Both the position numbers and the translations under genes were made by a program. Shown piece after piece: positions 45,650 to 59,768 of a DNA stretch of 64,000 nt. The DNA is from Armatimonadota bacterium (GTDB lineage Bacteria; Armatimonadota; UBA5829; DTJY01). The notes below the pieces were generated by a model, which did no database searches, was not told where the DNA came from, and saw only the letters and a list, made by a program, of their open reading frames with translations. The stretch covers positions 62,001-126,000 of the forward strand of contig JAIMAU010000007.1 in the NCBI GenBank assembly GCA_023511795.1. The letters run 5' to 3'. Position 1 is the stretch's first letter. Every line of letters begins with the position of its first letter.

Positions 45650-46303
45650 TTAACCTACCAGTATATCGAGCGGCGTATTCGATACTTTTCGTTTTATTCG
45701 CGCCAGAGCATTATCCACCGATTTTGTTTTGCACTGAAGCTCGGACGCAATCTCCCTGTACGACTTGCCGACTCGATACCCAGAAAGCACCCGCCATTCG
45801 AAGTCGCTTAGCATTTGCTGAAGCCTTTCTTGCAGCTGATTCGAATCTTCCTGCTTGAGCACCACCTCTTCTGGGTCGACGACATTCTCAGAAGTAAGAA
45901 TGTCGGAAAGCGTCCATTCGGAACTCGACTCATCGGGCGGCGACTCAAGCGAAAGAGAGGTGTTCAGCGGAATTTGCTTCTGGCGCGTAGCGGTCTTAAT
46001 GGCGGTGATAATGTGCCGCTGGATGCAGATTCTGGCAAACGCAGGGAATGAAATTGCTTTGTCGGCTCTATAATCCACCACAGCTTGCCAGAGGCCAATC
46101 ATCCCGACCTGCAGAAGGTCTTCTTTCTCTGCGCCCACAAGGAAATAAGATCTCACTTTGTTGCGAACAAGGTTTCTGTATTTATAGAGAAGATACTCGG
46201 CGGCTTGCTCTTCACCCGCCTGCGCACGCTCGACGACTCCGGCGTCCGACATACCTTCGTATTGAGCATGCCTTTGTGGCACAAGGTCCTGATCGTATTC
46301 CAT
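45650..46303 (-). CDS. sigH: SigH-like RNA polymerase sigma factor
   Basis: 217 residues. Region 2 is very close to Bacillus SigH: YRNLVRNKVRSYFLVGAEKEDLLQVGMIGLWQAVVDY and FARICIQRHIITAIKTATRQKQIPLN. Region 4 has a helix-turn-helix (GKSYREIASELQCKTKSVDNALARIKRK). In Bacillus this factor drives early stationary-phase genes; here the regulon is unknown. Its ATG overlaps the TAA of the preceding DUF4342 gene. Confidence 0.9.
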   Translation of the reverse strand: MEYDQDLVPQRHAQYEGMSDAGVVERAQAGEEQAAEYLLYKYRNLVRNKVRSYFLVGAEKEDLLQVGMIGLWQAVVDYRADKAISFPAFARICIQRHIITAIKTATRQKQIPLNTSLSLESPPDESSSEWTLSDILTSENVVDPEEVVLKQEDSNQLQERLQQMLSDFEWRVLSGYRVGKSYREIASELQCKTKSVDNALARIKRKVSNTPLDILVG

Positions 46304-46909: not shown

Positions 46910-47767
46910 CTACCTTCTGCGTCGGATGAATCCGGCGAGTCCGAACAGGCCGGCGCCAAGCGCAAGCAAGCTTGTTGGCTCAGGCACCATGTTCCAGTTG
47001 CCTCGCCATGCGACGTCATCAACGTAGTTGTAGCCATGGGCTACCGCTGACCAGTTGCCAAGGATTAGGGTTGCTGGCGTGGATGTGTTAGCCCACCGAG
47101 CGCACGTGTTGTCCATGGTCATGGTCATCTTCGGCGCAAGCGTGCTGTCTACATACCACTTGATTGTGCCTACACCTGCGCCGTAGTCGAATGACCAGGT
47201 TACTCTCCACCTGTGCCAGCCTAAGCTCCTAGGAGCAGCTGAACCAACGGTCCACGTAGTGCCGGCAAATGTTGGAGCAGTCACGCCATCCAGTTTGGCG
47301 TAGGTGTACGACCACATCAAGCAGTAGTAGTCGGTACTACCCCAACCCGTGCTGGTGTTGGTAATTGCGCCTGTGATGTAGCCAGCTGGCGAGTTTGTCG
47401 CAGTCCAAGAGGTGCACTTGGAAGTGACTACGCCCAAGCGAAGGTCGTCGTTCGGGCTGAAGGTCATGTCATCGTAGACCCAAGCCTCTGCCTGGCCTTC
47501 CTTGAAGTAGAACTGCTGGCTGTTGTTGTTGAAGTTGCGCCCAATCCTGTCAACGGTCGAGTTGCCCTGCCGTGCGGACCAATAACCAGTTCTCACCTGA
47601 TATCCCTGGGCCGCAGTGCCTACGCTGAACGTACCCCAAGCACCTATGTTCCATGCGCCTAGATTTCCAGACTCAAAGCCGTCGAGAACTTCTAAGTCCC
47701 ATGCATATGCAGGGGCGATTGCGAGCGCCATTGCAACAACAGTTAAGGCTACTAATATCTTCTTCAT
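46910..47767 (-). CDS. PEP-CTERM sorting-domain surface protein
   Basis: 285 residues from the ATG at 47767 (AAGGAG upstream). Signal peptide MKKILVALTVVAMALAIAPAYA; the body is a concanavalin-like beta sandwich rich in Trp, Thr and Asn (LDGFESGNLGAWNIG; WHRWRVTWSFDYG; IKWYVDSTL). The C-terminus is a full PEP-CTERM signal: VPEPTSLLALGAGLFGLAGF then RRRR. An exosortase (not in the window) would cut it during export. It carries the conserved 23-bp element and promoter at 48051-48113 and a leader of about 277 nt. Confidence 0.93.
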   Translation of the reverse strand: MKKILVALTVVAMALAIAPAYAWDLEVLDGFESGNLGAWNIGAWGTFSVGTAAQGYQVRTGYWSARQGNSTVDRIGRNFNNNSQQFYFKEGQAEAWVYDDMTFSPNDDLRLGVVTSKCTSWTATNSPAGYITGAITNTSTGWGSTDYYCLMWSYTYAKLDGVTAPTFAGTTWTVGSAAPRSLGWHRWRVTWSFDYGAGVGTIKWYVDSTLAPKMTMTMDNTCARWANTSTPATLILGNWSAVAHGYNYVDDVAWRGNWNMVPEPTSLLALGAGLFGLAGFIRRRR

Positions 47768-48050: not shown

Positions 48051-48079
48051 ATAATACACCTTCTTCGCTGTCTTGTCAA
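48051..48079 (-). promoter_or_regulatory. Promoter of the PEP-CTERM gene at 47767
   Basis: Minus strand TTGACA (48079-48074), 17-bp spacer, TATTAT (48056-48051); start near 48044. The 23-bp element stands exactly 11 bp upstream of the -35 box. Confidence 0.8.
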
Positions 48080-48090
48080 CCCCTATAATG

Positions 48091-48113
48091 AAAAACAGGT
48101 AAAAATACTAGGT
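48091..48113 (-). promoter_or_regulatory. 23-bp conserved upstream element, copy 3
   Basis: Minus strand ACCTAGTA-TTTTT-ACCTGTTTTT. Identical to the two copies at 58497 and 58641 except in the central five A/T bases. Its first base touches the last codon of the cvpA-like gene, so the element lies directly behind that gene. Confidence 0.8.
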
Positions 48114-49616: not shown

Positions 49617-49646
49617 TTGACAATGCGGGCATACATACACTACACT
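49617..49646 (+). promoter_or_regulatory. Promoter of the four-gene TPR/GT-C operon
   Basis: TTGACA (49617-49622), 18-bp spacer, TACACT (49641-49646), start near 49653. It overlaps the upstream in-frame start codons, so translation should begin at 49707. The 23-bp PEP-CTERM element is absent. Confidence 0.65.
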
Positions 49647-49706
49647 ACTTCTGAAGCTTACGTCATTAGCGCTTTTCCATTCGTGTCGGAGAGGTATCCG
49701 GCTAAA

Positions 49707-51875
49707 ATGACTATCAAAACAAGTAAGTGCGGTCGCTCCTTGGATGACCAGGCTAAAGGCGGGGCAACTTCTAGACGCTTTGAGGTGCTTGCCGTCGCTG
49801 CTCTTCTCCTAATAGCTATTATCATCAGGGTGGTCTATATTCTCCAATACAAGAACAATACTCCATGTTATTCGGCGCCTATGATGGATTCGCAATATTA
49901 CGATTTATGGGCTCAGAGGGTAGCCAGTGGGGAGGGGTATGGTGCCAAGCCGTTTTACATGGCGCCGCTTTACCCGTATGTGTTGGCGGGGATATACAGG
50001 GTATTTGGGCACAATTATGGGATTGTTTACATATTTCAGATGGTATTAGGTATAGGGAATCTAGTGATGGTGTACTTGATAGGGAGGAGGGTATTTGGGC
50101 ATTGGGCAGGGGTTGTGGGGATGTTATTAGTGATGGGATATGGGCCGGTGATATATTTAGAGACCAAGTTATTGACTGAGACGTTATCGATAGCGATAGG
50201 GTTAGGGACTATATTGGTGTTTATGGGAGCTGTAGGTAGTGGTAGAGGCGTAAGGTATTTACTGGGGGGTATACTGGCTGGTTTAGGGGCGATTTGTCGA
50301 GCGAACATGATAATATTTGGGATATTTGTTTTGGGATGGGTATTGATTAGTGGCGTGCGAGGGGTAGAGGGGTTAGGTAGGGGTATACGTAGTAGCGTTT
50401 TGGTATTGGCGGGGATGATTTTGGTAGTAGGGTTAGTAGGGGTGAGGAACTACGTAGTAGGTAGGGATGTGGTAATGATATCGTCGAACGCGGGGATAAA
50501 CTTTGCGCAGGGTAATTTAGGGAGGCGTGAGGGGATATTCACATATTTAGAGGGATTTAGTGGTTCGATAATAACGCAGGAGGATGAGGAGCGGAGGATA
50601 GCGTCGAGAGAGGTAGGGCATATAGTTAAGGCGTCTGAGTCATCGAGGTATTGGATTAGGGAGACGATTAGGTATATGAGGGGGCATATAGGTGAGACGT
50701 TTTTGTTATGGGTGAGGAAGGTTATATGGGTATTACACGGCAGGGAGGCGCCATGCAATTACAACATATATCTTGAGAGGGAGATGGTATGGGTATTGAG
50801 GTATTTGTTTGTACCGTATTGGATGATATTAGGGTTAGGGATGTATGGGTTTGTTAGGGGTATAGGCAGGGGTAGCAGGTATGGGATAAGTTTGGTAGGG
50901 TTGTACATATTATCGATATTCGTGACGTTGGTAATATTCTCGGTAAGTTCGAGGTTTCGTGCGCCGATGGTTCCGGCGCTTGGGGTATTTGCTGGGTATG
51001 GGTTTACACAAGCCATTAGTGGGTTTAGTAAGAGGTGTGTTGGTGTTTTAGCAGTTTGCCTTGGGCTTCCAATTTTAATCTCCCTGATACCCTATCCGGT
51101 GCCATTGATAACTTCCGAGGCGCTAGCGAATCTCGGCGTTTCTTACTTAAGCTTAGGTGATGTTAAGGAAGCCGAGAAAAGATTAGAAGAAGCATTGGAG
51201 GTTGATCCGGATTTCGCATATGCACATGTCAATTTGGGAACGGCATTGGCAATGCAGGGGAGGATGGAGGAGGCTGCAAATCATTTCTTAGAGGCGTTAA
51301 GGATCTATCCTAGCTCAGTCGAGGCTCACAGTAACCTTGGAAGCATACTGGCGATGCAGGGCAAGTTCGACGAAGCGTTGCGGCATTTTGCTGAGGCTGC
51401 TCACCTCAATCCAAATTCGGCCGAGGTTTTAAACAATTTAGGAAACGTGCTGGCAAAGTTGGGAGATTTAAATGGGGCGGCAGAGAGCTACTCGAAGGCT
51501 TTGAAGATTAATCCACGTTTTTCCCAAGCACATGCAAGCCTTGGAAATATCCTCATGCAGCAGGGCAGAATAAACGAAGCTATTGAACATTTTGAGTCGG
51601 CATTAGAAGCAAACCCTGACGACATAACCATACATTATAAGTTGGCGAACCTTTTGCTTAGACTCCGTAGGTTTGACGAGGCGATCAAACATTATAGGGA
51701 GATTTTAAAGCGTAACCCAGAAATTGGTAGGGTGCATAACAATCTTGCAGTAGCACTTTTCTTCAATGGCGATTATGCAGAAGCTTGGAAGGAAGTACGT
51801 CTTAGCGAGAGGTATGGAGTCAAACCAGCTCCGGGTTTCATTGAAGGTCTCGCTAAAAAGATGCCCGAGCCCTAA
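49707..51875 (+). CDS. GT39-like multi-pass membrane protein with C-terminal TPRs (copy A1), codon-mosaic gene
   Basis: 722 residues from the ATG at 49707 (GGAGAGG upstream). About ten membrane helices in an ArnT/PMT-like GT-C layout: the first loop has MMDSQYYDLWAQRV and MAPLYPYVLAGIYRVFGHN, where GT-C enzymes carry an Asp near the active site. About six TPRs (residues 500-680) and the tail HNNLAVALFFNGDYAEAWKEV...KKMPEP follow. Positions about 49915-51045 use almost only AGG, ATA, GGG, TTA/TTG and GTA codons, unlike the TPR part and the paralog at 56364. Probably a lipid-linked sugar transferase; substrate unknown. Confidence 0.85.
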   Translation: MTIKTSKCGRSLDDQAKGGATSRRFEVLAVAALLLIAIIIRVVYILQYKNNTPCYSAPMMDSQYYDLWAQRVASGEGYGAKPFYMAPLYPYVLAGIYRVFGHNYGIVYIFQMVLGIGNLVMVYLIGRRVFGHWAGVVGMLLVMGYGPVIYLETKLLTETLSIAIGLGTILVFMGAVGSGRGVRYLLGGILAGLGAICRANMIIFGIFVLGWVLISGVRGVEGLGRGIRSSVLVLAGMILVVGLVGVRNYVVGRDVVMISSNAGINFAQGNLGRREGIFTYLEGFSGSIITQEDEERRIASREVGHIVKASESSRYWIRETIRYMRGHIGETFLLWVRKVIWVLHGREAPCNYNIYLEREMVWVLRYLFVPYWMILGLGMYGFVRGIGRGSRYGISLVGLYILSIFVTLVIFSVSSRFRAPMVPALGVFAGYGFTQAISGFSKRCVGVLAVCLGLPILISLIPYPVPLITSEALANLGVSYLSLGDVKEAEKRLEEALEVDPDFAYAHVNLGTALAMQGRMEEAANHFLEALRIYPSSVEAHSNLGSILAMQGKFDEALRHFAEAAHLNPNSAEVLNNLGNVLAKLGDLNGAAESYSKALKINPRFSQAHASLGNILMQQGRINEAIEHFESALEANPDDITIHYKLANLLLRLRRFDEAIKHYREILKRNPEIGRVHNNLAVALFFNGDYAEAWKEVRLSERYGVKPAPGFIEGLAKKMPEP
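49915..51045 (+). other. Segment of aberrant codon usage inside the first GT-C/TPR gene
   Basis: C is depleted and G enriched on the coding strand; in 50341-50400 I count 26 G and 4 C, against 15 G and 13 C in the equivalent part of the paralog (56941-57000). Leu is TTA/TTG, Arg AGG, Ile ATA, Gly GGG or GGT. The reading frame is intact and the protein aligns with the paralog. Confidence 0.8.
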
Positions 51876-51952
51876 AGCTACTGTTGATTTGAGGGATTGG
51901 GACTGGTTGGAAATATCTTTTTAGGCTGTTTGTTGGGTTATAGGCAAGTGAT

Positions 51953-54031
51953 ATGGGTAAGTTTTCAAAGAAGCAGTTGGACTACACTCTCATACTTATT
52001 TTCTTTCTAGCGCTAGGCACGTTTGCCGCTTTTGCTCAGGTGCTTCGGCACGAGTTCATAAACTTAGATGATAATGTCTACGTGACGGAGAACCCCCAGG
52101 TCTTGCGAGGGCTTTCCATCGATAGCGTCAAATGGGCATTCACTGCCATTTATAGAGCAACCTGGCAACCGTTGATATGGCTTTCTTATATGCTTGATAT
52201 GCAGGTTTATGGATTGAAGCCGATGGGCTTCCACCTGACAAATGTTATTTTTCACATCGCTAACGTACTTCTGTTATTTCTAGTTCTCAATCGTATGACT
52301 GAAAAATTGTGGAGAAGCGCACTAGTTGCCGCTCTTTTTGCCGTCCATCCGTTGCATATCGAGTCGGTTGCATGGGTTGCAGAAAGGAAGGACGTCGTTA
52401 GTACTTTTTTCTGGATGTTTACGATGTGGGCGTATGTCCGATATGCCCTTTTACCTAAGGTCAGCACCTACATCCCGGTGGTTGTTTTCTTTGCACTAGG
52501 TTTGATGGCAAAGCCGATGCTTGTCACCCTTCCTTTTGTGCTTCTTCTTCTTGATTATTGGCCTTTAAATCGTATAAGACCCGTTCGGGACTTGCAGTTG
52601 GAAAAGCCTTCAAAGGCAATTGGAAGGCTTGTTGTCGAAAAAATCCCGCTTTTTGTGCTGGCGTTGGCTTCAAGTGTACTTGCGGTTGTTGTGCAGAAAA
52701 AAGGAGGAGCATTGAGCTCCACTGAACTTGTGCCAGTTGGAGTGCGAATAGCAAATGCGCTTTATTCATATTCTGCTTATATAGTAAAAACTATTTGGCC
52801 CGTAAAGCTGGCAATTTTATATCCACATCCAGGCGACACACTAGCCATTTGGCAGGTTATCGGTTCGGCGGCACTGCTCATAATACTTACGATTTTTGCA
52901 ATTCTGCTTGCAAAGGCTGGTCGTCAATTTGTAGCAGTTGGGTGGCTTTGGTTTATGGGTACGCTTTTGCCGGTGATAGGCATTGTGCAAATCGGCCCTC
53001 ATGGGATGGCTGATCGTTTTACTTATATTCCGCTGGTTGGGCTATTTATAATAGTTGCTTGGGGAATACCTGATGTGTTTTACTGTCAAAATAACGAATT
53101 ATCGGCAGAAAATAGCCGATCGAGGTTCTCACATCCAACCGTTATTCCATTCTGCGCTTTAGTTGTCCTGGCGGCTTTGATTATATGTACGCAATTCCAG
53201 CTAACCTATTGGAAGAATAACATAACGATATTCGCTCGTGCTCTTGAATGTACCAGACGCAATTACTTGATGCAAAACAATATGGGACTTAGCTTTGCCG
53301 CCCAAGGCAAGTATGAATTGGCTGTCAAACATTATGCTAGGGGCCTGGAACTTCGGCCTGATGATGCTCAGTTGAACAATAATATGGGTGTGTCATTGGC
53401 GGATCTTGGCAGAATTGATGAGGCGATGATGTATTACCACCGGGCGATTGAACTGGATCCAAAATATGCGATGGCGCACAATAACCTTGGTATCGCACTA
53501 GCACAAAAGGGCCGCTTGGAGGAAGCTATTAAACATTATGAGACTGCCATCAGGCTTAATCCAAATTTTGCCGAGGCGCACAATAACCTAGCTGTGGTTC
53601 TCGTCTCTTCGGGCAGGATTGATGAAGCTTTGGGGCACTATTTGGAGGCAATACGGATAAATCCCACCTATGCCAGTGCTCATATTAACTTAGCAAATGA
53701 GCTTGCGAAGTTAGGACAGTTAGACGATGCTGTTGAACACTACCGGGCAGCAGTTCAAATTCAGCCAGAGAATCCCATGCCTCATTATAAATTAGCAAAC
53801 ATACTGTTTAGACAAAAGAAATATAATGAAGCCATTAAGGAATACCGAGAAGTTCTGGAGCTTATGCCTAAACTTGCGGCGGCACACAATAATCTAGCGG
53901 TTGCGCTATACTTTGCTGGTAATTATGCCGGTGCTTGGGAGGAAGTGAAGCTTTCTCGGAAGTACGGCGGAAAAATACATCCTCAATTTCTTCATGCACT
54001 CTCAGAGAAAATGCCGGAGCCTAAGCAATGA
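51953..54031 (+). CDS. TMTC-like multi-pass membrane protein with TPRs (copy B1)
   Basis: 692 residues. About eleven membrane helices of the DUF1736/TMTC-like GT-C type: FINLDDNVYVTENPQV (Asp-Asp in the first loop), TWQPLIWLSYMLDMQVYGL, FAVHPLHIESVAWVAERKDV, MADRFTYIPLVGLF. About seven TPRs follow (residues 440-660), and the tail HNNLAVALYFAGNYAGAWEEV...EKMPEP is shared with its neighbours. Eukaryotic TMTCs are O-mannosyltransferases; a protein-glycosylation role here is inference. Starts 77 nt after copy A1 and overlaps copy B2 by ATGA. Confidence 0.87.
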   Translation: MGKFSKKQLDYTLILIFFLALGTFAAFAQVLRHEFINLDDNVYVTENPQVLRGLSIDSVKWAFTAIYRATWQPLIWLSYMLDMQVYGLKPMGFHLTNVIFHIANVLLLFLVLNRMTEKLWRSALVAALFAVHPLHIESVAWVAERKDVVSTFFWMFTMWAYVRYALLPKVSTYIPVVVFFALGLMAKPMLVTLPFVLLLLDYWPLNRIRPVRDLQLEKPSKAIGRLVVEKIPLFVLALASSVLAVVVQKKGGALSSTELVPVGVRIANALYSYSAYIVKTIWPVKLAILYPHPGDTLAIWQVIGSAALLIILTIFAILLAKAGRQFVAVGWLWFMGTLLPVIGIVQIGPHGMADRFTYIPLVGLFIIVAWGIPDVFYCQNNELSAENSRSRFSHPTVIPFCALVVLAALIICTQFQLTYWKNNITIFARALECTRRNYLMQNNMGLSFAAQGKYELAVKHYARGLELRPDDAQLNNNMGVSLADLGRIDEAMMYYHRAIELDPKYAMAHNNLGIALAQKGRLEEAIKHYETAIRLNPNFAEAHNNLAVVLVSSGRIDEALGHYLEAIRINPTYASAHINLANELAKLGQLDDAVEHYRAAVQIQPENPMPHYKLANILFRQKKYNEAIKEYREVLELMPKLAAAHNNLAVALYFAGNYAGAWEEVKLSRKYGGKIHPQFLHALSEKMPEPKQ

Positions 54032-56340
54032 ACAAGTCATCTAGTTGGCCTGCTCATTGGAAAATTGCCATTGCTCTGTTTGCCATAACCTTAGTTGCTT
54101 TCTGCCGGGTGCTGGGGAACCAGTTTATAAACCTCGATGACCCGGAGTTTATTCATAACAATCCTTTTGTAAGAAGCGGGCTAACATGCGCCAGTGTAGC
54201 ATGGGCATTTAAGACGACACACACTGCCAATTGGCATCCATTAACGTGGATTTCGCACATGGTTGATGTTCAGCTTTTTGGATTGAATTCCGCAGGGCAT
54301 CATCTCACAAGCTTGTTGGTGCATGCTGTAAGTGCGGTACTATTATTTCTTGTTTTATATAAGGCGACCTTTGCAATCTGGCGTAGCGCATTTATTGCGG
54401 CTTTATTCGCCGTTCATCCATTACGTATCGAATCAGTCGCATGGATTGCAGAGAGAAAGGATGTGCTGAGCACAGCTTTTTTATTGCTTACAATATTGGC
54501 GTACATTCGATTTGTCCAATCGCCTTGCATAAAAACTTATGTTCCAGTAATCGTTTTTTTCATGCTGGGTCTAATGTCCAAGCCAATGCTTGTCACATTG
54601 CCTTTTGCGCTGCTGCTTTTAGATTACTGGCCCCTCGGCCGTACTTCATTAAATCGTTGCTCGTTAAATGATATACCTACAAGCCGAGCAAGTAGACTCG
54701 TGTTAGAGAAAATTCCCCTGTTTGCGCTGTCTGCCTTATCTTGCATTGTTACATATCTCGTCCAGAGGGAAGAAGGTGCAATAAGGGATTTGGCTCAGTT
54801 CTCGTTGGGCGTTCGGATAGCGAATGGAATTGTGGCTTATGTCGCCTATATTGGAAAGATGCTGTGGCCAGCAAAGCTTTCGGTGTTCTATCCGCACCCA
54901 GGGCGGAGTCTGCCTATATGGGAAGTCATCATGTCGGCGTTGGTTTTGATAGGGATCACTTTCCTTGTGCTCAGGCTGGCTAGGAGGGCGCCATACCTCC
55001 CAGTTGGCTGGTTTTGGTATCTCGGAACCCTAATTCCAGTCCTAGGACTTGTCCAGGTTGGCGGAGCGGCAATGGCTGATAGGTATACATATATTCCTCT
55101 AATTGGCTTATTCTTTATTGTCACGTGGGGATTGCCTGAGATGGTCGGAAGCAGTTGGCAAAGTGAGAGGTTGCCGACGGTTGGCGCCAGAAATAACGCT
55201 TCCTCATTGCCCGTTGGATCTAAACTGGCATCTTCTAAGTTCGACGCTCTTCCGTTCGTGGCTGGATTGGCAGTCATTGCATTGATGATATCTACTGCGG
55301 TCCAGCTGGGATACTGGGAAAACACCTTCACTCTATTCAAGCGGGCGCTAGCAGTGACAGCGAAAAATGCTGTTGCACACGGGCAACTTGCTGTTGCTTT
55401 GGAAGCTGAAGGTAAACTTGACGAGGCGTTAGAACATTACCGAGAGGCCGTCCGTATAGAGCCAAGAGATCCAATGGCTCGGTATAACCTGGGTGTTGCG
55501 CTGGCGAAGATTGGAAGGACTGATGAGGCGGTTGAGAAATACAACGAAGTGCTTCGCCTAAATCCAGAGCATGTCGGCGCACACAATAACTTGGGGCTTC
55601 TCCTTCTCAACCGTGGCAACGTGAAGGAAGCTATACACCACTTCAGGGAAGCTCTGAGAATTGATCCCAATTTCCCAGAAGCCAGGAATAATTTGGCTAA
55701 TGCATTGGCTGGCGGCGGCAATGCACAGGAAGCTATACGTAAATACGAAGAAGCCCTCGAGGCTAATCCTAATGACGCAACTACTCACTATAATCTAGGT
55801 GTAGTTCTGGCTGAAAAAGGCGAGACCGAAGAAGCAATTAGACACTATCTTGAGGCGGTCAGACTGAGGCCAAATTATGCTAAGGCTCACCTAAATTTGG
55901 GGCTTTTGCTCGAACAGCAAGGGCGAATGGACGAGGCGGCCGAGCATCTGGCGAAGGCATTGCAAGCTGATCCCAAGTGTGCAGATGCCCACAATAGCCT
56001 TGGTATTATACTTGCAAAGCAAGGCCGCCTTGACTTGGCAATGCTACATTTTGGTAGCGCCGTCCGCCTCGACCCAAATAACGCACAGGCGCATTTCAAC
56101 CTGGGAAATATATTTGGAGCTCAAGGTGAGCAAGACAGGGCTTTGAGTCATTTTACCAAAGCAGTGGAATTGAAACCGGACTTTTCACAAGCGCATTTTA
56201 ACTTGGCAGTTGCGTTGTTTCATAAAGCTCGGTATGCTGAAGCATGGAAACATGTTCGCCTTGCGCAGAAGTATGGGTTCGAGCCGAATCCTGCATTTCT
56301 CCAAGCTCTGAGTGCAAAGATGCCCGAGCCGAATAATTGA
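54028..56340 (+). CDS. TMTC-like multi-pass membrane protein with TPRs (copy B2)
   Basis: 770 residues and a paralog of the preceding gene: FINLDDPEFIHNNPFV, NWHPLTWISHMVDVQLFGL, FAVHPLRIESVAWIAERKDVLST, MADRYTYIPLIGLFF. It has more TPRs (about nine to ten, residues 445-745), so its binding surface is longer. The tail is HFNLAVALFHKARYAEAWKHV...AKMPEP. Start overlaps the stop of copy B1. Confidence 0.87.
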   Translation: MNKSSSWPAHWKIAIALFAITLVAFCRVLGNQFINLDDPEFIHNNPFVRSGLTCASVAWAFKTTHTANWHPLTWISHMVDVQLFGLNSAGHHLTSLLVHAVSAVLLFLVLYKATFAIWRSAFIAALFAVHPLRIESVAWIAERKDVLSTAFLLLTILAYIRFVQSPCIKTYVPVIVFFMLGLMSKPMLVTLPFALLLLDYWPLGRTSLNRCSLNDIPTSRASRLVLEKIPLFALSALSCIVTYLVQREEGAIRDLAQFSLGVRIANGIVAYVAYIGKMLWPAKLSVFYPHPGRSLPIWEVIMSALVLIGITFLVLRLARRAPYLPVGWFWYLGTLIPVLGLVQVGGAAMADRYTYIPLIGLFFIVTWGLPEMVGSSWQSERLPTVGARNNASSLPVGSKLASSKFDALPFVAGLAVIALMISTAVQLGYWENTFTLFKRALAVTAKNAVAHGQLAVALEAEGKLDEALEHYREAVRIEPRDPMARYNLGVALAKIGRTDEAVEKYNEVLRLNPEHVGAHNNLGLLLLNRGNVKEAIHHFREALRIDPNFPEARNNLANALAGGGNAQEAIRKYEEALEANPNDATTHYNLGVVLAEKGETEEAIRHYLEAVRLRPNYAKAHLNLGLLLEQQGRMDEAAEHLAKALQADPKCADAHNSLGIILAKQGRLDLAMLHFGSAVRLDPNNAQAHFNLGNIFGAQGEQDRALSHFTKAVELKPDFSQAHFNLAVALFHKARYAEAWKHVRLAQKYGFEPNPAFLQALSAKMPEPNN

Positions 56341-56363
56341 AAAAACAAGAGGACAGTACAAGG

Positions 56364-58424
56364 ATGTCTTCTGAAAGCAAACGCAAAAACCCCAAGTCAA
56401 AAACAGCTCTTTTTTCTTCTGGTATTGCTAGCAATCATCTTGTTCAGCTGAGCCTTGTTGTGCTCCTGGCAATCGCAATTAGGGTTATTTATCTACTGCA
56501 ATACAAAGCGAACGCACCTTATTATTCGGTTATGATTGTGGACTCACGTTACTACGATGAATGGGCTCAGCGAGTTGCTGCGGGAAAGGGATATGGTCCG
56601 ATGCCATTCTACATGGCACCGCTATATCCGTATTTTCTGGCGATTATGTATAAGATTTTTGGCCATAATTTTACTCCAATATATGTCCTTCAGGCGGCCC
56701 TCGGCATAATCAATGTCTGTCTTGTTTATGTTCTGGGAAGAAAGCTTTTTGGCCATCTATCTGGCTTAATTGCAATGCCGCTTATTCTGTTTTATGCTCC
56801 GCTTGTATACCTTGAAGCCAAAATTCTCACCGAAACGCTGGCGATTGCTATTAACCTGTGTTCTATACTGCTTCTGATGCGTGCGATTGAACGACCTAGC
56901 GCCAGCAGGTTCTTAGGAGCGGGTGTTTTGCTTGGTGTGAGTGCTGTCTGCCGGCCGAATTCACTAATAACAATTGAACTGTTTATTGCGTGGCTTTGGC
57001 TTTTTGGCCGTCGGATGGCTAGTTTTTATACTCGCCAACTTTTCCCTCTAATCATTGGTGTTGTGCTTGCGATTGCACCTGTTACAGCGAGGAATTATTT
57101 CATCGGAAATGACTTAGTGCTCATTACGTCAAATGGCGGGATTGTTTTTGCTCAGGCAAACAACGAAGCCGCTAATGGTGTATCTTCTGCAATGGCTGGT
57201 TTCAGTACCTCAATAATGACCCAGCAACAAGAGGAGATGGCAATCGCAAGTAGGGCTCTAGGCCATCAGGTGAAACCTTCGGAGTCGGCGGCCTTTTGGT
57301 TTCGCCAGGGGCTTACTTTTATTAGAGATCACCCAGGCAGTTTTGTCAGGCTTCTTGCGCTAAAACTTCTTTGGTCTTTGCATGATGTCGAAGCACGATG
57401 TAGCTTCAATGTCTATCTTGAAAAGACTTTTGTCCCCATTCTGCGATGTCTTCTGCTTCCCTTTTCTCTGCTGGCCGGCTCAGCACTATATGGCATCATC
57501 CGCGGACGCAAACAGTGGACATTTGGAGCTTCTCTGACGGGTCTCTATATTCTTTCTATTTTTCTCGGCCTCATAATTTTTTCCGTTAGCTCAAGATACA
57601 GAGTTCCAGCGGCTCCGGCGCTTGCCGTTTTCGCAGGCTTTGGCATTGTCAGCGCGGCCGAGGAAGTCCGGAGGCGAAGGATTAGGCCGCTGTTTGCCTT
57701 GCTAGGTTGCATTGCGATTTTCCTCGGCATTTCATCTGTGCCCTATCCGATACCCAAAATCACTGCTGGCGGATACAACAACCTAGGGGCGGCGCTTGTT
57801 CGCCAGGGTCGCCTTGATGAGGCAGTTATCCAATACAAGCGAGCTCTCAAAGTCAAGCCAAACCACTTCTCGGCTCATGTAAACCTTGCGAACGTCCTTG
57901 CCGCGCAGGGGAAGCTGGACGGGGCGGCAGTACACTATCGGGAGGCTATTCGCATTAAGCCGGATGATGCGAGAGCACATTTTGAGCTTGGGATTGTTTT
58001 AATTGGGAAGGGATGTTTTGGTGAAGCAATCGAGGAGCTTTCAGAGGCGATACGGTTGAATCCAGGTCATGCTGGTGCGCATCTAAAGCTAGGCGAGGCG
58101 CTTGCAGCAGTTGGTCGGAGGGAGGAGGCGATAAGGGAGTATAGGGAAGCGATACGTTTGAGACCATGGGATGCGAGGGCACATTTTGAGCTTGGGGTTT
58201 TATATGGTGAGAAGGGTTTAATAGATGATGAGATGAGGGAGTACAGGGAGGCGATAAGGTTGAGGCCTAATTTTGGGGAGGCGCACAACAATCTTGCGGT
58301 TGCGTTGTATTACAAGGGACGGTATGATGAGGCTTGGGAGGAGGTAAGGTTATCGCGCAGGTATGGAGTATCTCCCGATGCTAGTTTTGTGAAAGCGCTT
58401 TCGGAGAAAATGCCGAGGCATTGA
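56364..58424 (+). CDS. GT39-like multi-pass membrane protein with C-terminal TPRs (copy A2)
   Basis: 686 residues from the ATG at 56364 (GAGGA 9 nt upstream); a TTG at 56337 overlapping the previous stop is the alternative. A close relative of copy A1 in the membrane part (MIVDSRYYDEWAQRV; MAPLYPYFLAIMYKIFGHN; RVPAAPALAVFAGFG) with about five TPRs and the tail HNNLAVALYYKGRYDEAWEEV...EKMPRH. Codon use is ordinary until about 58100, then turns AGG/GGG/TTA-rich like the odd part of A1. Last gene of the operon; I saw no strong terminator after it. Confidence 0.86.
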   Translation: MSSESKRKNPKSKTALFSSGIASNHLVQLSLVVLLAIAIRVIYLLQYKANAPYYSVMIVDSRYYDEWAQRVAAGKGYGPMPFYMAPLYPYFLAIMYKIFGHNFTPIYVLQAALGIINVCLVYVLGRKLFGHLSGLIAMPLILFYAPLVYLEAKILTETLAIAINLCSILLLMRAIERPSASRFLGAGVLLGVSAVCRPNSLITIELFIAWLWLFGRRMASFYTRQLFPLIIGVVLAIAPVTARNYFIGNDLVLITSNGGIVFAQANNEAANGVSSAMAGFSTSIMTQQQEEMAIASRALGHQVKPSESAAFWFRQGLTFIRDHPGSFVRLLALKLLWSLHDVEARCSFNVYLEKTFVPILRCLLLPFSLLAGSALYGIIRGRKQWTFGASLTGLYILSIFLGLIIFSVSSRYRVPAAPALAVFAGFGIVSAAEEVRRRRIRPLFALLGCIAIFLGISSVPYPIPKITAGGYNNLGAALVRQGRLDEAVIQYKRALKVKPNHFSAHVNLANVLAAQGKLDGAAVHYREAIRIKPDDARAHFELGIVLIGKGCFGEAIEELSEAIRLNPGHAGAHLKLGEALAAVGRREEAIREYREAIRLRPWDARAHFELGVLYGEKGLIDDEMREYREAIRLRPNFGEAHNNLAVALYYKGRYDEAWEEVRLSRRYGVSPDASFVKALSEKMPRH
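58100..58370 (+). other. AGG/GGG-rich codon segment at the end of copy A2
   Basis: The TPR repeats EYREAIRLRP and the conserved tail are written with AGG, GGG, ATA and TTA codons, as in the odd segment of copy A1, while the upstream part of the gene is not. Confidence 0.6.
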
Positions 58425-58496: not shown

Positions 58497-58519
58497 ACCT
58501 AGTAAAAATACCTGTTTTT
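58497..58519 (+). promoter_or_regulatory. 23-bp conserved upstream element, copy 1
   Basis: ACCTAGTA-AAAAT-ACCTGTTTTT, ending 11 bp before the TTGACA at 58531. ACCT recurs 13 bp apart inside the element, suggesting a direct-repeat operator. Confidence 0.85.
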
Positions 58520-58530
58520 GTGAACAAGTA

Positions 58531-58559
58531 TTGACAGCTCGGCCGTACCGACGTATACT
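58531..58559 (+). promoter_or_regulatory. PEP-CTERM promoter P1
   Basis: TTGACA (58531-58536), 17-bp spacer, TATACT (58554-58559); start near 58566. Confidence 0.85.
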
Positions 58560-58640
58560 GGGCTGTGACAAAAGAGGTTCGTAGCTAAGCAAGTACAGCA
58601 TGCAAGCGCGATTTAAAAATAATCGAACACTTCCGATGGG

Positions 58641-58663
58641 ACCTAGTAATAATACCTGTTTTT
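58641..58663 (+). promoter_or_regulatory. 23-bp conserved upstream element, copy 2
   Basis: ACCTAGTA-ATAAT-ACCTGTTTTT, again ending exactly 11 bp before a TTGACA box; 144 bp downstream of copy 1. Confidence 0.85.
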
Positions 58664-58674
58664 CAATGAGTGGC

Positions 58675-58703
58675 TTGACAAGAAAGCTAACTTCGAGTAT
58701 ACT
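58675..58703 (+). promoter_or_regulatory. PEP-CTERM promoter P2
   Basis: TTGACA (58675-58680), 17-bp spacer, TATACT (58698-58703); start near 58710, giving a leader of about 300 nt. Spacer and flanks differ from P1, so the shared parts are under constraint. Confidence 0.85.
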
Positions 58704-59012: not shown

Positions 59013-59768
59013 ATGAAGAAGGTTCTTGTAATCACCTGCATTCTGGTTCTGGTCGCGCTGGTCGCTGGGAGTGCATTCGCCGCAGAGAACAACTGGCGGT
59101 TCAGACTGCGCGCTGACAACAACGCCGGCGCGTACATGAGCGACAGCCAGTTTGGTATCTATCCGACGTCCAGCGACGGCTATGACTCTCAGGATGGCGC
59201 GGCTCAGTTCCTCGCTGACCCGTATGGCATGACGTATGCAAACTGGGCGACTGAGGTAATCCCAGGAAGGACCGAAGCCTTCATGAAGAGTATCAAGGCG
59301 CCCATACAAGCCGGTCAGCCAGTGGAGAAAAAGTGGGACCTGAGAGTCTATGTACTGAGGGATGGGACGAATCCTTACATTCGCCTGAACTTCATGTGCA
59401 TAAGCACTTTGGCAGGAATGGCCCCACCCTCAATGATAAATGGCGTGCCGTTAGTATACTACATAAAGATGGTCAACAACCGGGGTGTAGAGGGCGCGCC
59501 AGCCAATGGAACGGAATGGATAATCCCTGTTCCAACGGAATACAAAACGAACGAGGCGTGGTTCACGCTCGTCCTGCCGACCGGCTTCAGGGGGGTAAAT
59601 GGCCCGAACGACATCATGTTGACGGTGAGCCACCCGAACAATGCAGCAAGTGAGGGCTACATCATGGAGTACGGGTTCAGACCCGTTCCTGAGCCTAGCA
59701 CCTTGCTTGCATTCGGGACCGGTGTAGTCGGATTGGTGGGCTTCGTGATGAGGAGGCGCAGAGCCTAA
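59013..59768 (+). CDS. PEP-CTERM sorting-domain surface protein (second)
   Basis: 251 residues with RBS GGGAGGTGA. Signal peptide MKKVLVITCILVLVALVAGSAFA; the mature part is a beta-rich domain of unknown family (NWRFRLRADNNAGAYMSDSQFGIY; WDLRVYVLRDG). The C-terminus is PEP-CTERM: VPEPSTLLAFGTGVVGLVGF then RRRR. It is driven by two tandem promoters with the 23-bp element. It shares only the sorting signal and regulation with the protein at 46910-47767. Confidence 0.93.
   Translation: MKKVLVITCILVLVALVAGSAFAAENNWRFRLRADNNAGAYMSDSQFGIYPTSSDGYDSQDGAAQFLADPYGMTYANWATEVIPGRTEAFMKSIKAPIQAGQPVEKKWDLRVYVLRDGTNPYIRLNFMCISTLAGMAPPSMINGVPLVYYIKMVNNRGVEGAPANGTEWIIPVPTEYKTNEAWFTLVLPTGFRGVNGPNDIMLTVSHPNNAASEGYIMEYGFRPVPEPSTLLAFGTGVVGLVGFVMRRRRA

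Follow-up and report, generated by a model that had tools for sequence, protein, structure and literature searches.

Operator Copies and Promoters in the Window

The window, a 64-kb stretch of DNA from an Armatimonadota genome, carries two PEP-CTERM surface-protein genes, one on the plus strand at 59013–59768 (PF07589, 28.6 bits; Pfam and NCBIfam) and one on the minus strand at 46910–47767 (PF07589, 28.4 bits; ATG at 47767). A pattern search of the window for ACCTAGTA-W5-ACCTGTTTTT returned exact copies at 58497–58519 and 58641–58663 on the plus strand, separated by 144 bp, and at 48113–48091 on the minus strand, which are the three 23-bp copies reported in the preliminary description. No further match with up to three mismatches was present in the window, and 100 shufflings of the window gave 0 matches, so that none is expected by chance.

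All three copies consist of an inverted-repeat core followed by a T-tract: 58499–58514 and 58515–58519 in copy 1, which is conserved in the class, 58643–58658 and 58659–58663 in copy 2, and 48111–48096 and 48095–48091 in copy 3. As had been claimed, each lies 11 bp from a TTGACA that is followed after 17 bp by a −10 hexamer. The sigma-70-type promoters read from the sequence in this way are P1 at 58531–58559 (TTGACA 58531–58536, TATACT 58554–58559), P2 at 58675–58703 (TTGACA 58675–58680, TATACT 58698–58703), and, on the minus strand, P3 at 48051–48079 (TTGACA 48079–48074, TATTAT 48056–48051). The genes downstream are indeed PEP-CTERM genes, but they number two rather than three, the copies at 58497 and 58641 belonging to tandem promoters of the single gene at 59013–59768 and P3 serving the gene at 46910–47767. 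Beyond a sorting tail and a signal peptide, the two proteins have nothing in common, and flanks and spacers are unlike among the copies, in line with the earlier view that the proteins are otherwise unrelated and that the copies did not arise by recent duplication. A leader of about 280–300 nt, also proposed earlier, describes the window genes (∼303 nt from P2 and ∼277 nt from P3); other targets in the same genome have leaders of 106–357 nt and those in relatives vary widely, and no particular leader length can be taken as characteristic.

An RNA element in the leaders was considered and rejected: Rfam at the gathering threshold found only a tRNA in the window, the two leaders gave nothing credible as a riboswitch at E values up to 1, and they have no sequence in common. 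Downstream of the minus-strand PEP-CTERM gene lies a gene for a sigma-70 region 2/4-like protein (45650–46303), which we do not favor as the regulator because the promoters are consensus sigma-70 promoters. Between the two loci, four large TPR protein genes stand in a row (49617–58424), at least two of them with a mannosyltransferase-type domain; similar genes occur at another locus (L072).

Structure and Distribution of the Operator

The window's own genome (G000, 3.09 Mb) was analyzed by searches and by the stretches around matches, 28 genomes were used for comparison within the class, and 263 genomes represented the rest of the phylum; the reversed pattern served as control in the same scans. 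In G000, the strict string has 4 exact copies and several variants, and comparison of these sequences revealed an inverted repeat, CTNGTA-N4-TACCNG, and, toward the promoter, the T-tract. The inverted repeat CYNGTA-N4-TACCNG together with a promoter-side T-tract is a better description of the element than a string with a W5 gap.

The preliminary description had proposed a genome-wide search, and within the class this search yielded a strong excess over the control: the pattern CYNGTANNNNTACCNGTTTTT had 85 matches in 16 of the 28 class genomes against 1 match of the reversed control. Outside the class, the 17 matches in 263 genomes (5 for the control) are near background. Two named records matched the operator together with TTGACA, both of them Armatimonadetes MAGs.

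Helical Phasing to the −35 Box

A relaxed scan asked for the repeat and a TTGACA within 6–36 bp (36 bp being the upper limit), with neither the T-tract nor a fixed spacing demanded. It gave 101 matches versus 3 for the control and recovered the T-tract unprompted, with 85–92% T at three of its positions. The distance from repeat to TTGACA was 15–17 bp in 62 of the matches, 25–28 bp in 25, and 35–36 bp in 6, and the peaks at 16, 26–27, and 36 bp are separated by one helical turn, the stepped placement upstream of −35 that characterizes class I activator sites. With the −35 box set at −35 to −30, arithmetic from the spacing puts the main site center at about −60 and the others at about −70 and −80. 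The activator-type placement suggested earlier is borne out by the phasing, while the position given for it, around −50, shifts to nearer −60 for the main center and the spacing is not always 11 bp. No conserved start region was seen after the −10 box.

Steps of one turn relative to −35 point to an activator that reaches RNA polymerase along a single face of the helix. It appears improbable that the site instead serves a repressor of sigma-70 promoters that would otherwise be constitutive; the near-consensus −35 and −10 boxes may need no activator, but the site is clear of the core promoter, and its one-turn steps fit polymerase contact better than occlusion.

The phasing is predicted by neither an intrinsic terminator nor a repeat family and argues against both. 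An inverted repeat followed by TTTTT does resemble a terminator, or an RNA hairpin that insulates the gene; however, a full stem is possible at just 19 of 74 sites, the position pair 3–16 is without compensation (25 observed versus 26.6 by shuffling), the window copies break the stem, and the distance to −35 would stay unexplained, which leaves this explanation with hardly any probability. We regard as equally implausible that the copies are a dispersed repeat or mobile element. Several copies per genome could be read in that way, and the preliminary description had named such a family, or hits scattered without regard to PEP-CTERM genes, as what would overturn its proposal, yet 98 distinct gap sequences were found among the 101 relaxed-scan matches, flanks are unrelated, no longer unit common to the copies was found around them, and the sites lie upstream of exported-protein genes. 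On sequence grounds, there is good support for an activator-type operator that is conserved, phased, and placed before genes for exported proteins.

Genes Downstream of the Operator

In the relatives, 68 of 74 sites have an ORF within 900 bp. By the tail pattern, 27 of these 68 downstream genes encode PEP-CTERM proteins, and many of the other products start with a signal peptide; among non-PEP-CTERM targets, of which nine to fifteen were examined with Pfam, we found Ig, fn3, BNR, NHL, amidase, and GHL10/glycosidase domains. Enrichment upstream of PEP-CTERM genes, a test put forward in the preliminary description, was assessed in ten genomes with the 53 PEP-CTERM genes that scored highest; a site, either strict or promoter-linked, was present at 10 of them, whereas random placement predicts 0.09. 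PEP-CTERM genes therefore bear the operator ∼100-fold above chance, yet those that do are only a subset, about one-fifth of the genes sampled. The idea of a surface-protein regulon holds, but its confinement to PEP-CTERM genes does not, since other exported proteins are also targets and most of the sampled PEP-CTERM genes lack a site.

Clear PEP-CTERM targets in G000 are the two window genes, C2:70092, and the pair C3:174456/175124. At C3:10237 the palindrome is present in a different placement, and some strict matches are not followed by a clear promoter or a gene for an exported protein. The weak palindrome at C12:14978 was dropped as a target because a good sigma-54-like site was found at this gene.

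Two further loci carry related sequences. At L056:3673–3723 (G000, C1:641672–641722), two close operator-like repeats, kept in G007, are flanked by a glycosidase-like gene and by a small ORF whose product has a zinc-ribbon-like CxxC motif, with no clear in-phase promoter. At L066:4899–4914, a near-perfect repeat, CTAGTAATTATACCAG, also present in G007, occupies the gap that precedes what appears to be dnaA and has a minus-strand TTGACA at an in-phase distance.

GerE-only LuxR-family Proteins as Candidate Regulators

G000 encodes 3 strong GerE proteins, all of them HTH-only. The candidate regulator protein is of the LuxR/GerE type (PF00196 HTH, 68.6 bits versus a cut-off of 23.5); it is 81 amino acids long and consists of the HTH alone, and the absence of an autoinducer-binding domain sets it apart from LuxR-LuxI quorum sensing. 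The operator has LuxR-type arms: a 20-bp inverted repeat with arms ACCTG-N10-CAG is seen when ACCTGGTAATTTTACCAGTT is compared with the lux box, ACCTGTAGGATCGTACAGGT (PMC4444344).

One GerE gene, C2:296922–297164, is preceded by CTGGTAATTTTACCAG, a T-tract, 10 bp, and TTGACA-N17-TAAAAT. It begins 272 nt downstream of this promoter, whose repeat is perfect and in phase, and the arrangement is kept in G007; such an operator at its own promoter implies that the gene may be positively autoregulated. In G006, two divergent GerE genes have two palindromes between them, one of which is in phase. Most GerE paralogs have no operator upstream.

Across the class, no site is present in the five genomes that lack such GerE proteins, and promoter-linked sites occur in 20 of the 23 others (p ∼ 6e-4 by simple counting, kinship ignored). 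The remaining three genomes, G003, G004, and G025, have GerE proteins but no site in the promoter-linked scan, and G004 has two strict-pattern matches. The five genomes that lack these GerE proteins also lack RpoN and a PrsR-like protein, so this co-occurrence fails to single out GerE. G019, with 30 PEP-CTERM genes and an exosortase, has no GerE-only protein, RpoN, or operator sites, and its being rich in PEP-CTERM genes yet site-free makes the operator separable from PEP-CTERM itself.

Small GerE-only LuxR-family proteins are likely readers of the operator. The same activator site and regulon might be served by a regulator from a different family, such as one of the GntR type, with the operator near GerE genes merely placing GerE within the regulon, a reading that we consider rather unlikely. 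The A/T-centered repeat could suit other dimeric HTH families, and most sites are not adjacent to GerE genes. However, the CT-N12-AG and lux-box arm geometry of the operator, its location at the GerE promoter in G000 and G007 and between the GerE genes of G006, and the fact that no other regulator gene was noticed among the ORFs directly downstream of the sites all favor the GerE-only proteins.

A Possible Sigma-54 Route in the Same Genomes

The operator was described at the outset as distinct from the PrsK/PrsR-sigma-54 system, and the data agree. It sits at sigma-70-type −35/−10 promoters; the element-bearing window genes have TTGACA-N17-TATACT or TATTAT and not the −24(GG)/−12(GC) boxes of a sigma-54 promoter. 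The best match to the PrsR model (TIGR02915) scored 434 bits against a cut-off of 502.6, which none of the 28 genomes exceeded. G000 does encode a full-length PrsR-like NtrC-type regulator near a second RpoN (C1:570289–571620 and C1:573880–574296), and the pairing of a PrsR-like protein with RpoN recurs in other class genomes.

At a threshold of 8, no sigma-54-like site was found in L017, L019, L150, or L166. Among the element-bearing PEP-CTERM genes of relatives, 4 of 27 also have a sigma-54-like site, so the two routes can overlap. PEP-CTERM genes of G000 without the element gave sigma-54-like scores of 10 out of 11 (C4:64734 and C12:15844) and 9 (C13:34432), scores of 10 and 9 being reached by 1.6% and 4.8% of random windows, respectively. 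Sigma-54-like −24/−12 sites are likewise present at element-free PEP-CTERM genes in L067 (TGGCATGATAATTGC), L064 (TGGCATGATTCTTGC), and L070 (TGGCCCAATTCTTGC). Several element-free PEP-CTERM genes thus have sigma-54-type promoters, and the two routes may coexist.

Discussion

We propose that an activator working at sigma-70 promoters uses the element as its operator to control a regulon of exported surface proteins, and that the element is probably read by small GerE-only LuxR-family proteins. A dimer would bind the 16-bp CYNGTA-N4-TACCNG, centered at about −60 or one or two helical turns farther upstream, and from there would contact RNA polymerase on the same DNA face, as class I activators do; the promoter-side T-tract probably aids bending or docking of the alpha-CTD. 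The regulon would comprise PEP-CTERM proteins together with large Ig/fn3, beta-propeller, amidase, and glycosidase exoproteins. Its most likely regulators would be the GerE-only LuxR-family proteins of the class, the product of C2:296922–297164 being positively autoregulated. Judged from the genomes, surface-protein genes throughout a class of uncultivated Armatimonadota are probably turned on by tiny LuxR-type proteins. A more speculative extension, which we put at somewhat below even chances, is that self-activating HTH-only LuxR paralogs, acting by dosage or mutual pairing, run a class-wide exoprotein regulon as a sigma-70 alternative to the sigma-54 PrsR-like route in the same cells.

PEP-CTERM regulation in the literature searched follows the proteobacterial sigma-54 route only. 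Haft (2006) described a PEP-CTERM cis-element with a −24/−12 sigma-54 promoter and a proposed PrsR site, in Proteobacteria only, and stated that there were more motifs and regulators yet to be discovered (PMC1569441); in Aquincola, sigma-54 control of one PEP-CTERM gene has been demonstrated (PMC9850573). In the literature that we searched, mostly outside subscription journals, no description of a sigma-70 or LuxR-type PEP-CTERM regulon in Armatimonadota was found, and we regard the sigma-70 surface-protein regulon as a new control route to that extent. For a phylum in which genetics is almost lacking, the analysis supplies an operator of defined sequence, a list of its targets, and the name of a candidate regulator family. 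The data also suggest that the surface proteins of a single genome are split between two modes of control.

Like the PrsK/PrsR regulon (PMC1569441), the regulon proposed here was discovered by comparative genomics, has a common cis-element in the long regions that precede PEP-CTERM genes, most of which stand singly, and appears to place surface proteins under activator-type control; unlike it, the Armatimonadota operator is phased to a −35/−10 sigma-70 promoter, and other exoproteins are covered too. With LuxR and the lux box it shares the 20-bp inverted repeat and its arms, GerE-type HTH regulators as candidates, and a site at the regulator's own promoter, whereas the inner bases are GTA-N4-TAC, the candidates are without the autoinducer-binding domain, and the main position is farther upstream of −35. 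EpsA (TIGR03020), an XrtB/PEP-CTERM-associated LuxR-type protein that annotation also ties to PEP-CTERM genes, is the best NCBIfam HTH match for two of the three G000 GerE proteins and the third-best for the other, but these proteins score 54.4–60.2 bits, over the HTH only, against a 170-bit cut-off, and the N-terminal part of ∼180 residues is absent. Very small HTH-only LuxR-family proteins are known in Bacillus GerE (1fse, E = 2.6e-9) and PedR (model match), which resemble the candidates in build and differ from them in serving other regulons in other organisms.
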